From the NCBI GenBank assembly GCA_024641985.1, contig JAHEBZ010000004.1, positions 169,047 to 210,100 on the forward strand: a stretch of DNA of 41,054 bases. Reading direction: 5' to 3'. Source of the stretch: Rhodoluna sp. (GTDB lineage Bacteria > Actinomycetota > Actinomycetes > Actinomycetales > Microbacteriaceae). Shown piece by piece: positions 23,813-32,345 of the stretch. Each line of letters starts with the position of its first letter. Within the stretch, counting starts at the first letter, position 1. Under the pieces are notes generated by a model. It did not search any database. It had not been told where the DNA came from and saw only the letters and a program-made list of their open reading frames with translations. Both the position numbers and the translations under genes were made by a program.

Positions 23813-24192
23813 GCGGTTGGTGGCTTTAGCCCCAGCTTTTCAGAGGCTTTAGCAACGTTCGGCACGCGGCAAGCCGCCGAGGCTTCTTCGATCGAGTTTT
23901 TCAACAGGTCATGCGTTTCTGGGTGCTTCTCCATATAACGAACCGTGTATGAACAAACCGGCACAACCTTATATTTGGCAGCCGCACGCACATCGGCAAG
24001 CGCCTCACGGGTCAAGATTGCCGCCAGGTTTTTGCCCTGGTGTTCGGGGTTAACCCCGGTGTGCACAAAGTGAATTTCATCAAGCATCAAGCTGTACTCG
24101 AGCTCACCGGCCATGTCGCTGCCAAGCCAAATTTCGTATCGGTGCTCGGCCGTGTTGTGAACTACTTTTGCTTCAGTCGAATTCTCGCTCAT
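23809..24192 (-). CDS. Small GNAT-type N-acetyltransferase (YjdJ-like)
   Basis: A 127-residue protein. The core (about residues 5-95) matches the small GCN5-related acetyltransferase group: RYEIWLGSDMAGELEYSLM, the EIHFVHTGVNPEHQGKNLAAILTREAL acetyl-CoA loop region and the C-terminal PVCSYTVRYMEKHPET motif. Such proteins are cytoplasmic and of unknown substrate. ATG 24192 is preferred over GTG 24210 because a near-consensus AATAAT lies exactly six bases upstream of it. It is divergent from the tct operon. Confidence 0.8.
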   Translation of the reverse strand: MSENSTEAKVVHNTAEHRYEIWLGSDMAGELEYSLMLDEIHFVHTGVNPEHQGKNLAAILTREALADVRAAAKYKVVPVCSYTVRYMEKHPETHDLLKNSIEEASAACRVPNVAKASEKLGLKPPTA

Positions 24193-24198
24193 GCCTTC

Positions 24199-24204
24199 AT
24201 TATT
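24199..24204 (-). promoter_or_regulatory. -10 element of the GNAT gene
   Basis: AATAAT on the minus strand is six bases before ATG 24192 and decides the start choice over the upstream GTG. Confidence 0.4.
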
Positions 24205-24261
24205 GTTCACGCGGTTATCTAAGTGTTACTAAAAACCCGCAATTTCACCCAAATGAGGGAG

Positions 24262-24267
24262 TAGTGT
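24262..24267 (+). promoter_or_regulatory. Possible -10 of the tct operon leader
   Basis: TAGTGT would place the transcription start at about 24274-24275, exactly where the first strand of the leader's closing stem begins. No good -35 was found. Confidence 0.35.
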
Positions 24268-24274
24268 CTTCCTT

Positions 24275-24364
24275 ACTAGGGGAGTATCCCACCTCAGGTG
24301 CAACGACATAACCGGCGAAAGCCCGGGGCGCTTGGTCACAGAAATGTGGCGGGAGAGACTTAGT
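24275..24364 (+). ncRNA. Structured leader RNA, riboswitch candidate upstream of tctCBA
   Basis: About 185 bases of untranslated leader precede tctC. The first 90 bases fold by eye into a closed multi-helix unit. Closing stem ACTAGG (24275-24280) pairs with CTTAGT (24359-24364). Hairpin CACC-TCA-GGTG is at 24290-24300. CCGGC-GAAA-GCCCGG (24312-24326) has one bulged C, and GTCACA-GAAA-TGTGGC (24335-24350) has a GNRA loop. Unpaired GGGGAGTA beside the 5' closing strand and GAGAGAC beside the 3' strand resemble the two conserved loops of the yybP-ykoY (Mn2+) riboswitch, but the downstream genes are not manganese exporters. It may be a variant of that class or a distinct element. Confidence 0.5.
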
Positions 24365-24394
24365 CTTCGGTTCGCTTTTGTTGGGCTCTCGAGA

Positions 24395-24454
24395 CTCCCT
24401 CAAGGCTGACCGTTGCGGATTCTCCGCCGGGGAATCGTCAAGTTTCCTTGGAGG
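24395..24454 (+). promoter_or_regulatory. Possible expression platform masking the tctC ribosome site
   Basis: CCTCAAGG (24398-24405) can pair with CCTTGGAGG (24446-24454), one bulged G, hiding the GGAGG ribosome site. A second hairpin, GATTCTCC-GCC-GGGGAATC (24418-24436), lies inside. CTCCC (24395-24399) could instead pair with GGGAG (24351-24355) in the leader's conserved 3' part, giving mutually exclusive folds. This is inference from complementarity only. Confidence 0.35.
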
Positions 24455-24459
24455 ATAAA

Positions 24460-25584
24460 TTGAAGAAAATTGCAATCGCAGCGACGGCGCTCGCGTTAGT
24501 TGCATCGAGCCTTTCAGTAGCCCCAGCAATCGCCGCCGGCGTTCCTGCTGCTAAAGCAACTGTCAGCACTCCCTGCACAAAAGTAAATGAAGTTGCTAAG
24601 GGCCGTGGTGCCGATGGCAGCGACCTAAAGTGTTTGGTGGCCAAAGTTGGTGGATACGCCGGCTCAAAGGTTTGGTCATACCCAACCACTCCTGTAGTTA
24701 GTGCCCTAGAGTTCACCATTCCAGCTTCGGCTGGTGGCGGTTTCGACTCATTTGGCCGCGCAGCCGGTGCCGCTCTCAAGGCCGAAGGCCTATTGGCCTC
24801 TGAGCCAACCTTTAACTATGTTCCAGGCGCAGGCAACAATCCTGGTCTGATCTACTTCTTGAACAACTACCGCGCTAAGGCCGGCAAGATCATGGTCACC
24901 GGCTTTGCTCAGTTCGGTGGCGTTTACACCACTAAATCAAAGTCAAAGGTTGCCGACACCGAAGGTGTTGCACGTTTGATGGCCGAATATGAAGTGTTCG
25001 TCGTAAAGGCTGACTCGCCATACAAGACCATGCAAGACCTAGTAGCCGACATCAAGTCGAAGCCAAAGTCTGTGGTTATTGCCGGTGGAACCGCCGGTGG
25101 CGTTGACACCTACACCGTTGCATCTGTTTACGATGCCGTTGGCGCAGGCGCTAAGAACATGAACTACGTTGGTTTCTCGGGCGGTGGCAAGGTTTCGGCT
25201 GCGCTTCTTTCTGACGCCAAATACTCGTTTGGTGTTTCAGGCTGGGGCGAGTTCCAGAGCTTTGTCGAGTCAGGCAAGATGCGTGTTCTTGGCATCTCAT
25301 CACCAAAGCGAATTGCCGGCATCTCGGCTCCTACCTTCACCGAAGCAGGTGTCAAGGTGGTTACCCAAAACTGGCGTGGATTGGTTCTTCCACCAAACAC
25401 CTCGGCTAAGGGCTACGCTCTAGTGCTTCGCGCCCTAGACACCATGCGTGCGTCTAAGTCATGGAAGCAGTCAATGACTGACAACAAGTGGCAAGACAAC
25501 TACATCTATGGAAACCAGTTCAAGGAATTCATCAAGATCGAGCAAAACCGAATCAGCAACCTATTTGCCGAGTTGGGCTTGTGA
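24460..25584 (+). CDS. tctC: Tripartite tricarboxylate transporter substrate-binding protein TctC
   Basis: A 374-residue exported protein starting at TTG 24460, with GGAGG (24450-24454) just upstream. A Sec signal peptide (about residues 1-27, ending AIAAG) is followed by a region with two Cys (CTKV and LKCL, about residues 40-58), then a TctC/Bug-type solute-binding domain (about 80-374). That domain includes IPASAGGGFDSFGRA, the VPGAGNNPGLIYFLN segment, and IAGGTAGGVD. TctC binds carboxylates such as citrate outside the membrane and delivers them to TctAB. The specificity here is not known. The Cys-pair module is an addition to the usual domain layout. Confidence 0.88.
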   Translation: MKKIAIAATALALVASSLSVAPAIAAGVPAAKATVSTPCTKVNEVAKGRGADGSDLKCLVAKVGGYAGSKVWSYPTTPVVSALEFTIPASAGGGFDSFGRAAGAALKAEGLLASEPTFNYVPGAGNNPGLIYFLNNYRAKAGKIMVTGFAQFGGVYTTKSKSKVADTEGVARLMAEYEVFVVKADSPYKTMQDLVADIKSKPKSVVIAGGTAGGVDTYTVASVYDAVGAGAKNMNYVGFSGGGKVSAALLSDAKYSFGVSGWGEFQSFVESGKMRVLGISSPKRIAGISAPTFTEAGVKVVTQNWRGLVLPPNTSAKGYALVLRALDTMRASKSWKQSMTDNKWQDNYIYGNQFKEFIKIEQNRISNLFAELGL

Positions 25585-26099
25585 GTTCTTTAGCAACTAA
25601 GGGTGCAAAGGGGGAGCTGGTTTTTACCAGCTTCCTCTTTGCACTATCCATCGTTATTCTTTGGGACACAACTCAGCTAACTGAGTCTGCTTTGACCGGT
25701 TCAGTAAGTCCAAAGGCTTTCGCCTTTGGCGTTGGCGGACTGCTCTTTGCACTCTCGGCCTTCCAAATTGCTCAGGTGCTTCGCGGCAAGCTGGGTGAAC
25801 CCGAAGGCATCGAAGGCGGCGAGGCCACTTCGAAGGCAAACTGGAAAGCACTCGGGCTTGTGGTTTCCGCCATTGTGCTCCACATCGTGCTGCTACCGTT
25901 TCTAGGTTTCATGATTGCCAGCACTGTGCTGTTTTTCTTAGTGGCTTTTGCATTGGGCGAAAAGCGCTGGTTAAAACTGTTGATCATCTCAGCAGCACTG
26001 TCAGCCATTGTTTACTTCGGCTTCACAGAGGCCCTACAACTTGATCTGCCGTTTGGTTTCGACTTCACTCAAACCACCCCTGTCGAAGAGGAATGGTAA
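25581..26099 (+). CDS. tctB: Tripartite tricarboxylate transporter small membrane subunit TctB
   Basis: A 172-residue membrane protein starting at GTG 25581, which overlaps the tctC stop as GTGA. The longer frame from 25488 is inside tctC and is rejected. Four hydrophobic helices are visible (about residues 14-30, 43-62, 87-118 and 126-146), with the typical [19 protein letters not shown] TctB motif after helix 1. TctB is the small, poorly conserved membrane component of the proton- or sodium-driven TctABC transporter. Confidence 0.85.
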
Positions 26100-27595
26100 T
26101 GGATTACAACGCGTTTTTAGAGGGCTTCGCTAACTCGCTAACCCTCACAAACCTTGGTTTTGGCCTGCTAGGCACAATCCTAGGAACATTGGTTGGCGTT
26201 TTGCCTGGCATTGGCCCTGCTCTCGCGATTTCACTGCTTCTGCCGATCACATTCACGGTTGAACCTCAATCAGCGCTGATCATGTTTGCCGCCATCTATT
26301 ACGGCACCATGTATGGCGGATCAACGACTTCGATTTTGCTAAACACGCCTGGCGAGAGCGGATCGATGATGACCGCACTTGAGGGCAACAAGATGGCTCG
26401 TGCTGGCCGAGCTGGTGCAGCCTTGGCTACGGCCGCAATCGGTTCGTTTGTGGCTGGCGCAATTGCAACCGGCATTTTGGCACTCGCAGCTCCGTTTATT
26501 GCAGACCTTGGTTTGCGTCTTACCCCAGCCGATTTCTTCGCTCTCATGGTTTTGGCCTTCGGCACAGTTGGCTCGGTCATGGGTTCATCGCCAGTTCGCG
26601 GCCTCATTTCTATGTCGGTCGGTTTAGGAATCGGACTCATCGGAATGGATCCACAATCCGGCGCACAGCGGCTAACTTTTGACGCGGTTCAGGCCATGGA
26701 TGGCATTCCCACTGTGATCATCATCGTGTCGCTGTTTGCGCTGGGCGAAGCTTTGTATGTGGCGATGCGAGGCCAAATGGGACTCAGCAAAATCAATAGC
26801 TTTGCCGGCCGCGCGTCTATGACCCGCGAAGACTGGCGGCGCTCGTGGAAACCTTGGCTTCGTGGAACCGCAATTGGTTTTCCGGCCGGAGTTTTGCCTG
26901 CGGGCGGTTCAGAGTTGCCAACATTTTTGAGTTACACACTTGAAAAGAAACTTTCAAAAAACAAGAGCGAATTTGGCCACGGAGCCATCGAAGGCGTTGC
27001 CGGCCCCGAGGCTGCAAACAACGCAAACGCCGCTGGCGCACTTGTGCCTTTGTTAGCGCTGGGTTTGCCAACGTCGGCAACAGCCGCAGTAATTCTGGTG
27101 GCATTCCAACAATTCAAAATTCAACCTGGCCCGCTACTTTTCACCGAGCAACCGGTTCTCGTCTGGACACTGATTGCGTCACTCTTCCTTGGCAACCTGT
27201 TGCTTTTGGTCGTCAACCTGCCTCTAATCAAGGTGTGGGTTAAGCTGCTTCAGATTCCAGTGCCTTACCTCTACGCAGGCATCATGGTATTTGCCATGGT
27301 TGGTGCCTATGCGCTAAAAAACTCAACCTTCGACCTTTGGTCTGCTCTAGTTATTGGTGTTTTGGGTCTTCTGTTCAGACGCTATGGTTACCCAATCACG
27401 CCACTTATTTTGGGTGCAATTCTTGGCCCAATGGCCGAGGTTGAGTTCAGGCGTGCACTTCAAATCAGCCAGGGTGACTATTTAACGCTGGTTAGCACTC
27501 CCTTCTCGATCGTTTTGTACAGCGCTTTGGCTTTGGCGCTCATTGGGCCACCGCTTTGGCGCAAAACTAGGGGTTTGCGCCAAAACACCAACTAG
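26099..27595 (+). CDS. tctA: Tripartite tricarboxylate transporter large permease TctA
   Basis: A 498-residue permease with about twelve helices. Family hallmarks are [21 protein letters not shown] near residue 30, [20 protein letters not shown] near 66-85, the central [16 protein letters not shown] and the related second-half sequence with [16 protein letters not shown]. TctA forms the transport path for the carboxylate supplied by TctC. ATG 26099 overlaps the tctB stop (TAATG) and has GAGGA at a good distance; ATG 26093 is an alternative. It is followed after 12 bases by an MFS gene. Confidence 0.93.
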
Positions 27596-27607: not shown

Positions 27608-28795
27608 ATGGCAATGAGTATCTTCAATCAACGTTGGTTGCTCATGGTGCTTCTGAACTCGGGGCTGGTTCAAGCCGCGGTTTATGTGGTGCGGCCGATG
27701 GTTACCTATAGAGCAGCAGACCTTGGCGCAGATGCCACGCTAATTGGTGCAATTGGTGCAACATTTGCGCTGGCCCCACTTTTCTTTTCGATCCAAATCG
27801 GTCGAGTTGTCGACAAAGGCCGAGCTGGTTTGGCAATGTTCATTGGTGCAGTGTTGTTGTCAATTTCATCAACCGCATTGATTTTTGCAGACCAAATTTA
27901 CCTATTGGTTTTGGCCATGCCTTTTTTGGGCATCGGCCACCTGCTCACCATGGTTGGTGGGCAAACGATGATTGCGAACCGATCGAACGACGGCAAGCTA
28001 GAAAAACACTTTGGTCTGCTTACCTTTTATGCTTCGATGGGGCATGGAGTCGGCCCATTCATCGGGGGAATTTTGGCCGATGACGGCGGGCCACGAATCA
28101 ATACCGAGGCGGCCATCACGTTTGCAGTTGCATTGATGATTTTGGCCATCTTCACGACTCTTCCGCTCTTTGGTGGCTTGATTAAAAAGGCAGAAAAAAC
28201 TCAACACACTGGCAAGGTCACCGTTCGCCAAGTTATGGCTGTGCCTCAGTTCAAGTCGGCTATTTTCGTGGCTTCCGCGATAACGGCTGTGGTCGACGTG
28301 CTTCTCATCTTCCTACCGTTGCTCGGTCGCGAGCTTGGGTTTTCGACTACCGAAATCGGGGTGCTTTTGGCCGTTAGGGCGTTCTCATCGATGGCCGTTC
28401 GGGTTATTTTGCAATCACTCACTAAAGCCCTCGGAATGAAAAATCTGCTTCTCGGGGGCTCGCTCGTAACTATGCTTTCTTGTCTGGCATTGGTGCAATT
28501 TCAAGACTTCTGGGGCATCGCGGTGATCATGTTGATCAGTGGCTTCGCAATGGGAATAGGGCAGCCAGCAACAATGGCTTGGGTATCTCGAATCTCATCT
28601 AGCGACACCAAAGGCCTAGCAATTGCAATTCGATTGACTGCGAATCGTTTTGGGCAAGTTACTATGCCTGCAATGGCCGGGTTGGTTGCTGGAGCCGGGC
28701 TTAGCGGTGTCTTTGTGATGTTGGCAGCCCTGCAAGCCGTTTCGATCGCGGTAACAACCAGCGCGCTTAAAAAATCTGGGCCCGAGGGCGATTAA
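27608..28795 (+). CDS. Major facilitator superfamily transporter, substrate unknown
   Basis: A 395-residue, about twelve-helix MFS permease. The typical helix 2-3 motif is present in reduced form as IGRVVDKGRAG, and the second half has a LLLGG segment after ALGMKN. The sequence is most like drug- or metabolite-exporter MFS groups, but no specific subfamily is clear. It lies 12 bases after tctA and is likely co-transcribed with it, so it may act on a related carboxylate. ATG 27608 or 27614 could be the start; neither has a strong ribosome site. Confidence 0.8.
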   Translation: MAMSIFNQRWLLMVLLNSGLVQAAVYVVRPMVTYRAADLGADATLIGAIGATFALAPLFFSIQIGRVVDKGRAGLAMFIGAVLLSISSTALIFADQIYLLVLAMPFLGIGHLLTMVGGQTMIANRSNDGKLEKHFGLLTFYASMGHGVGPFIGGILADDGGPRINTEAAITFAVALMILAIFTTLPLFGGLIKKAEKTQHTGKVTVRQVMAVPQFKSAIFVASAITAVVDVLLIFLPLLGRELGFSTTEIGVLLAVRAFSSMAVRVILQSLTKALGMKNLLLGGSLVTMLSCLALVQFQDFWGIAVIMLISGFAMGIGQPATMAWVSRISSSDTKGLAIAIRLTANRFGQVTMPAMAGLVAGAGLSGVFVMLAALQAVSIAVTTSALKKSGPEGD

Positions 28796-32209: not shown

Positions 32210-32234
32210 GTGCCCTCCTCAATAGATAGGGCAC
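32210..32234 (-). promoter_or_regulatory. Hairpin masking the thiB ribosome site
   Basis: On the minus strand GTGCCCT (32234-32228) pairs perfectly with AGGGCAC (32216-32210). The GAGGAGG ribosome site (32220-32214) lies in the loop and right arm. It is probably the TPP-controlled translation-blocking stem. Confidence 0.65.
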
Positions 32235-32335
32235 GGGTTAGAGGTCCTCCCTGCGCTGGCATTATCCAGATCAGGTTTGACGGTCGAAGACTACGGAGTC
32301 TTCCTCTCAGTCCGGTTCACCGAACTCCCGTGTAG
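32235..32335 (-). ncRNA. TPP riboswitch (THI element)
   Basis: Read on the minus strand, the element contains the universal thi-box segments in order: CGGGAG near the 5' end, CTGAGAGG, then ACCTGATCTGGATAATGCC and AGCGCAGGGAG. CACGGG (32334-32329) and CCCGTG (32237-32232) can form an outer stem. It controls thiBP: thiamine pyrophosphate binding should favour the downstream hairpin that hides the ribosome site. Recognition rests on strongly conserved bases, so confidence is high. Confidence 0.96.
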
Positions 32336-32339
32336 TTCA

Positions 32340-32345
32340 ACCATA
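32340..32345 (-). promoter_or_regulatory. -10 element of the thiBP operon
   Basis: TATGGT on the minus strand would start transcription about seven bases later, immediately before the 5' strand of the TPP riboswitch. Confidence 0.5.

Follow-up and report, generated by a model that had tools for sequence, protein, structure and literature searches.

Why should an operon that appears to import organic acids be preceded by an RNA that looks like a manganese sensor? The question arises at the genes tctCBA in a window of 41,054 nucleotides, the whole stretch of Rhodoluna sp. DNA that we analyzed, in which all features described here lie on the plus strand unless stated otherwise. The yybP-ykoY class of riboswitches senses Mn2+ and normally switches on Mn2+ exporters. 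A sequence-only reading of the locus had noticed a riboswitch-like leader before tctC that resembles this class, and had left three options: a known class on an unexpected gene, a variant with an altered ligand, or a new class. Covariance models identify the leader at 24273-24460 as a genuine structured RNA that is homologous to the yybP-ykoY (Mn2+) riboswitch, with a conserved structured core at 24275-24364 followed by a 95-nt platform to the TTG start codon at 24460. Judged by homology, the first of the three options appears to be the best: a yybP-ykoY-class riboswitch whose fold is ordinary, whose target is unusual and whose platform is longer. A metal sensor thus appears to have been relocated onto a nutrient importer in a freshwater actinobacterium. 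We consider it likely that the class assignment, Mn2+ as the ligand and the switch between helix P1.1 and hairpin B described below hold together.

Pfam identifies the downstream operon as tctC, which encodes a solute-binding protein (24460-25584; TctC PF03401, 67.3 bits when translated from 24448), tctB (25575-26099; TctB PF07331, 73.9 bits) and tctA (26093-27595; TctA PF01970, 492.2 bits). An MFS transporter gene follows at 27608-28795 (MFS_1) and is found after tctA in G006, G078 and G053 as well, the three relatives whose DNA reaches that far (59-60% identity); it is probably the fourth gene of the operon and may belong to the regulated unit. The ribosome-binding site GGAGG proposed by the sequence-only reading was borne out at 24450-24454 by alignments with relatives, in which the start codon at 24460 is GTG or TTG. 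The in-frame TTG upstream, at 24448, is a less likely start for tctC. The PDB matches of TctC are binding proteins of tripartite transporters, including Bug27 and terephthalate-binding proteins, and tctCBA is a predicted organic-acid uptake operon. One further protein, L053:1641-2627, had no family match and was set aside as a likely wrong frame.

Folding energy does not single out this leader. The stretch 24262-24462 has a z-score of -1.15, with 25 of 200 shuffles folding equally well or better, and 24268-24372 has a z-score of -1.61 (14 of 200). Since these values are unremarkable, the case for a structured RNA rests on homology and covariation. A search of 198 genomes with the leader gives matches in the window's own genome and in five others, the latter 72-84% identical over stretches of 37-100 nt; in G031, one of these five, a contig end interrupts the copy. 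TctC itself is 48-53% identical in the four relatives with a whole TctC, and the leaders are more conserved than the protein. A covariance model built from the tctC leaders of three relatives, with the window excluded (R1), scores the window at 74.4 bits, with an E-value of 3.6e-17 in a search of its genome. R1 also matches the leaders of 29 TerC genes from further Microbacteriaceae (15.7-34.6 bits), at loci that came from a plain pattern search in which 39 of 398 family genomes were hit; the reversed-pattern control gave none among the matches listed. The alx leader of E. coli, which we take to be a studied member of the yybP-ykoY class, was not found by R1. A second model (R2), built from 22 copies that include the first five tctC leaders and with E. 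coli alx outside the training set, has matches at E <= 0.01 in 202 of the 297 genomes searched from the order and finds the alx leader at 27.6 bits (E 6e-5); E. coli Alx is annotated as a Mn2+ exporter. Because the leader is homologous to exporter-linked copies and to alx and has kept the metal-site loops L1 and L3, we read it as a yybP-ykoY relative, in agreement with the resemblance first noticed.

The Rfam model of the class, RF00080, was a check proposed by the sequence-only reading, and it gives no match in the window at the gathering score, nor at E <= 10 in 24150-24560. At 18 loci that carry exporter or tctC leaders it has no match at E <= 1, an exporter leader and the tctC leader of G238 have none at E <= 10, and a search of six genomes gives none at the tctC leaders, with one sub-threshold match elsewhere (7.5 bits, E 4.4). 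Since RF00080 gives no match at E <= 10 on E. coli alx either, a missing Rfam match is weak evidence, and we rejected the scan as a negative test of membership. The E. coli mntP leader, which Rfam puts in the class, scores 41.6 bits with RF00080, below the cut-off of 45, and is not found by R2. As R2 misses mntP and RF00080 misses alx, the parts of the class covered by the two models differ. The absence of RF00080 matches in the exporter loci examined, set against R2 matches in 202 of the 297 genomes, suggests that RF00080 overlooks many actinobacterial copies. From its failure at alx and its sub-threshold score at mntP, it follows that yybP-ykoY copies, and the compact actinobacterial ones in particular, probably escape annotation pipelines. 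A search of a phage collection gave no match. Elsewhere in the window, on the minus strand at 32231-32341, a TPP riboswitch scores 55.8 bits against a gathering score of 54.3.

The architecture of the core is supported by compensatory change. The closing stem described by the sequence-only reading, here P1.1, pairs ACTA(GG) at 24275-24280 with CTTAGT at 24359-24364; it is paired in all nine tctC leaders and shows two-sided changes at two of its six pairs. P1.2 (TCCC at 24287-24290 with GGGA at 24351-24354) has one pair, of three counted, that occurs as C-G, U-G and U-A in the nine leaders, and P3.1 (CAGGTGC at 24295-24301 with 24328-24334) has two-sided changes at six of seven pairs. Across P1.1, P1.2, P3.1 and the inner stem of hairpin B, 99.0% of cells are paired and 11 of 22 pairs are changed on both sides in a MAFFT alignment of the nine leaders, which is not fitted to any model. 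The corresponding covariation score was reached by none of 500 shuffles, and sliding the partner strands by 1-3 columns lowered pairing to 26-47%. In an alignment of 95 copies, whose pairing counts lean towards structure because it is fitted to the model, 93.5% of cells are paired and 24 of 27 pairs are changed on both sides. Within the same fitted alignment, the P3.2 stem-loop (CCGGC GAAA GCCCGG with a bulged C, 24312-24326) has 88.1% of cells paired and the P4 hairpin (GTCAC..GTGGC, 24335-24350) has two-sided changes at all six pairs. Some details of the initial description are peculiar to the window on inspection: its small hairpin, which we take to be ACCTCAGGT at 24291-24299, exists there and is not kept in relatives, and the same is true of its two GNRA caps, as relatives retain P3.1 and P4 as helices with other loop sequences. 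Conservation is confined to P1, P3 and P4, no P2 being visible after P1.2 and before P3.1, and a three-way instead of a four-way junction is therefore predicted. About 4-6 nt occupy the expected position of P2 in the tctC leaders, and since most exporter-linked copies in the alignment look alike in this respect, P2 may be dispensable.

The loops that form the metal site in this class are preserved in the element. The internal loop L1 (GGAGUA opposite GAGA) lies between P1.1 and P1.2 in the window and in all nine tctC leaders. Its 5' side (24281-24286) is identical in all 95 aligned copies; on its 3' side (GAGA, 24355-24358) AGA is identical in all 95, with a first base of G in 87 and A in 8. 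The conserved loops picked out at the start, GGGGAGTA (24279-24286) and GAGAGAC (24353-24359), are confirmed. Unnamed at that stage was the key metal-site loop of the class, L3, which spans 24302-24311 and carries the motif CGACATAAC at 24304-24312. Its adenosine, A24308 in the window, is present in 95 of 95 aligned copies and in four later copies from the neighboring genus g13. In the available part of PMC6754395, an invariant L3 adenosine contacts Mn2+ in the members from X. oryzae (ACA48UACU) and L. lactis (UCA41AUUC), and it is from that text that we draw the correspondence of A24308 with A48 and A41. The Rhodoluna L3 differs in one or two bases from CGUCAnnAC, the common form: the third base is A or C in place of the usual U, and the eighth is C in G062 and G053.

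The sequence-only reading had placed the 5' end of the RNA at the closing stem on the basis of a probable -10 element. That element, TAGTGT at 24262-24267, gains support from the relatives, as a TAnnnT hexamer starts in register 12-14 nt before P1.1 in 10 of 10 tctC leaders (one of them the contig-edge copy); the chance of such a hexamer is about 0.075 per 10-nt stretch at even composition and higher in AT-rich DNA. It predicts an RNA 5' end at about 24274-24275. A generic sigma-70 promoter scan returned no promoter-like site. Further upstream, a GTTATCAAACCGTTACC-like sequence lies at 24213-24230 and likewise upstream of the -10 element in G006, G062 and G031, and three g13 copies have AATTGGTATACC or AATTGGTATATC in its place. 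These sequences are possibly operators for protein regulators that act alongside the RNA.

Between P1.1 and the start codon, the tctC leaders have a platform of about 95-110 nt, compared with typically about 30-55 nt in exporter copies. The leader can form two mutually exclusive structures, in which either P1.1 is closed or hairpin B forms at 24362-24396, with outer arms AGTCTT (24362-24367) and GAGACT (24391-24396); the 3' strand of P1.1, CTTAGT, is common to both. The best outer helix of hairpin B has 4-8 bp in all nine tctC leaders. Summed over the leaders these helices reach 57 bp, compared with a mean of 34.7 and a maximum of 44 when the 3' flank is shuffled, and none of 2000 shuffles attains the observed value. 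The helices were counted per sequence because MAFFT misaligns the outer arms between the two genera. The shared strand CAGT has C in place of its final T in G429 and G348, and both of its alternative partners are changed to match: the 5' strand of P1.1 from ACTG to GCTG, and the arm of hairpin B from AAGACTG to AAGGCTG. This matched double-partner change is the strongest indication that the two states are both of importance, although G429 and G348 may have inherited it from a common ancestor. Counted by column in five leaders, hairpins B and PC together are 88.7% paired, compared with 85.6% in shuffles (9 of 500), and outer hairpin B is 79.4% paired with no double change, a weaker result in part because the arms are misaligned. 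Hairpin PC itself (GATTCTCC GCC GGGGAATC, 24418-24436) has 93.0% of cells paired and two-sided changes at four of nine pairs in the five leaders. A 'PA' helix (CTTCGGT/ACYGAAG) was considered as a partner of P1.1 in the ON state and rejected, with 80% of cells paired and no excess over shuffles (113 of 500).

The two platform pairings proposed by the sequence-only reading fared less well than this competition between P1.1 and hairpin B, which has the better support. The pairing of 24398-24405 with 24446-24454, which would hide the GGAGG site, is possible in the window (-11.5 kcal/mol) and is not kept as such in relatives; the window also offers a stronger pairing against GGAGG (-16.2 kcal/mol). 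The rival pairing of GGGAG with CTCCC was not seen in relatives on inspection.

How would such a leader act? In solved members, Mn2+ docks L3 on L1 and stabilizes P1.1, as described in the part of PMC6754395 that is available. By analogy, at high Mn2+ L3 would dock on L1 and hold P1.1 closed in the tctC leader, and at low Mn2+ hairpin B would take the 3' strand of P1.1. A scan for intrinsic terminators found none. Control is most likely exerted at the level of translation, with the switch acting on the translation start at GGAGG. Mn2+ itself is most likely the ligand, and it would most likely turn the tctCBA-MFS operon ON. The sign of the response comes from computed structures. When the nine leaders are folded domain by domain, the accessibility of GGAGG is low throughout (at most 0.45) and shifts with the length folded. 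Closing P1.1 makes the site clearly more accessible in five of the nine leaders (G006, G062, G078, G238 and G429), leaves it about equal in three (the window, at 0.19 closed and 0.18 open, G732 and G348) and makes it less accessible in one (G053). Forced folding of whole leaders was tried for the same purpose and did not discriminate; domain-wise folding tilts weakly to ON. These predictions make ON with Mn2+ more likely than OFF, and if the class, the ligand and the P1.1/hairpin B switch are granted, we would give the ON sign a modest preference.

The genomic distribution of the element frames the question of its target. Among the 95 aligned copies, 79 stand before TerC genes, 7 before GDT1/UPF0016, 5 before TctC and 4 before another family, the partner being the best tblastn match on the same strand within 1.3 kb. 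The 95 rows come from 94 sources (pattern-chosen loci, best R2 loci and picked copies) and are a non-random sample in which one genomic copy occurs twice, leaving 94 distinct copies, and in which E. coli alx is one of the 79 TerC rows. The fourth partner family gave no Pfam match for the two members tested. This family, with proteins of 278-294 aa of which one starts MSKLNRLFDLASKALDK, lies downstream of the four copies in genus g131 (loci L121, L128, L129 and L130); by its position behind the element, this small-protein family appears to be a second non-exporter target of the riboswitch. At L131 (358-463 and 1521-1625) and L158 (351-456 and 1507-1612), paired copies occur about 1.2 kb apart, and a TerC-family reading frame follows each of them.

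The nine full tctC-linked copies found are restricted to Rhodoluna, with four among 67 genomes in addition to the contig-edge copy in G031, and to genus g13, with five among 22. Over 398 genomes of the family, R1 matches 11 at E <= 1e-4, eight of them tctC-linked and three TerC-linked. The search of the 67 Rhodoluna genomes also listed three weak matches (E 0.43-0.83), which were treated as chance or unresolved. All four Rhodoluna genomes with a TctC match carry the element there, none of the six terC genes over the Pfam cut-off in the four tctC-bearing genomes has it, and eight terC loci from elsewhere in the genus also lack it. Across the genomes of Rhodoluna examined, it is therefore the importer and not the exporter that has the switch. 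Genus g13 has no strong R2 copy other than at tctC. A marginal second R2 match in G238 (C1:1536856-1536963, locus L167; 22.3 bits, E 0.012) has no TerC, GDT1 or TctC relative in the fetched DNA around it. Other actinobacterial tctC-like loci lack the element in 46 of 46 cases (25 at L007-L031 and 21 at L177-L197, with 18 further places listed outside this count), the best chance matches reaching 14.5 and 12.2 bits. A TctC search of the genome contigs gave 36 pattern stretches, with no relative among them.

Different accounts could be given of a manganese-type leader on an importer. The target gene is one reason to ask whether the fold has been kept and the ligand retuned, so that the tctC copies respond to a different divalent metal or to a complex of metal and carboxylate in keeping with what the transporter carries. 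The drift of the Rhodoluna L3 from CGUCAnnAC points the same way, as does a review which, in the part available, places the yybP class on diverse and partly unexplained genes and expects variants with other metal specificities that would help to explain the genes that do not fit Mn2+ (PMC7266159). However, all five tctC-linked copies of genus g13 combine the same gene with a canonical L3 (CGTCATCAC), an A at the third L3 position also occurs in 7 of 90 copies without a tctC link, and the solved Mn2+ binder from X. oryzae has ACA at the corresponding place (available text of PMC6754395). We consider a retuned ligand improbable. If the ligand is Mn2+, the output might instead be inverted, with Mn2+ turning the importer OFF, for example because the importer brings in metal-carboxylates. 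Such a response would be physiologically sensible for an importer; the long platform sets these leaders apart from most exporter copies, and the folding predicts no difference for three of the nine leaders and a lean to OFF for one. Against it stands the weak tilt of the folding to ON in five of nine. We regard inversion as unlikely; it has the class and the ligand in common with the preferred explanation, so that the odds of the two overlap.

Two further accounts would remove the regulatory question altogether. An exporter leader could have been left before tctC by rearrangement and have lost its function, and the minority presence of the element (4 of 67 Rhodoluna genomes besides the contig-edge copy, and 5 of 22 in g13, many genomes being incomplete) would suit such a relict. 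The compensatory changes that P1.1, P1.2 and P3.1 show across the two genera, the retention of hairpin B and the greater conservation of the leaders than of TctC all argue against it, and we think it very improbable. Still harder to believe is a new RNA class that is unrelated to yybP-ykoY and resembles it by chance. The missing Rfam match is what speaks for it, yet RF00080 misses alx as well, and both models tie the leader to exporter leaders, R2 to alx in addition, so that the 'new class' option goes unsupported. A yybP-ykoY riboswitch that responds to Mn2+ through P1.1 and hairpin B thus remains our preferred reading of the tctC leader.

What such an arrangement means for the cell is a separate matter. 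It is conceivable, though we would not put it at even odds, that a metal riboswitch of exporters has been re-deployed in small-genome freshwater actinobacteria to switch an organic-acid importer, with real import of carboxylates and a control that matters to the cell. The reason could be a gating of carbon uptake by Mn2+ or by a retuned metal; alternatively, the transporter may move metal-carboxylate complexes. If true, this would be a regulatory link from metal to carbon. No title or abstract start among the open-literature matches listed dealt with the yybP-ykoY class at tctCBA. With nine orthologous copies before a single importer operon, and close copies linked to exporters to serve as controls, in genera with small genomes, the choice between 'same ligand, new gene' and 'new ligand' becomes directly testable at the tctC leader.

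Among known metal-sensing RNAs, the NiCo riboswitch has a four-way junction, without an analogous docking interface as far as the available part of PMC6754395 describes it, and the window has no Rfam match to it. The yybP-ykoY members (RF00080; E. coli alx and mntP, X. oryzae, L. lactis) share with the tctC leader the P1.1-L1-P1.2 leg with GGGGAGUA and GAGA, the L3 with the invariant Mn2+-contacting adenosine, and P1.1 as the switch helix (PMC6754395, in the part available). The tctC leader differs from them in its target, tctCBA, in having no visible P2, in the L3 variants of Rhodoluna and in lacking an Rfam match. In Corynebacterium glutamicum, the leader of cg2157 (terC) has been assigned to RF00080 (PMC3890552, as far as the available text goes). 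Leaders of terC genes in Microbacteriaceae and in further families of the order have the same compact aptamer as the tctC copies; those leaders stand before genes of the Mn2+ exporter type and mostly have short platforms, whereas the tctC copies carry about 95-110 nt with hairpins B and PC.
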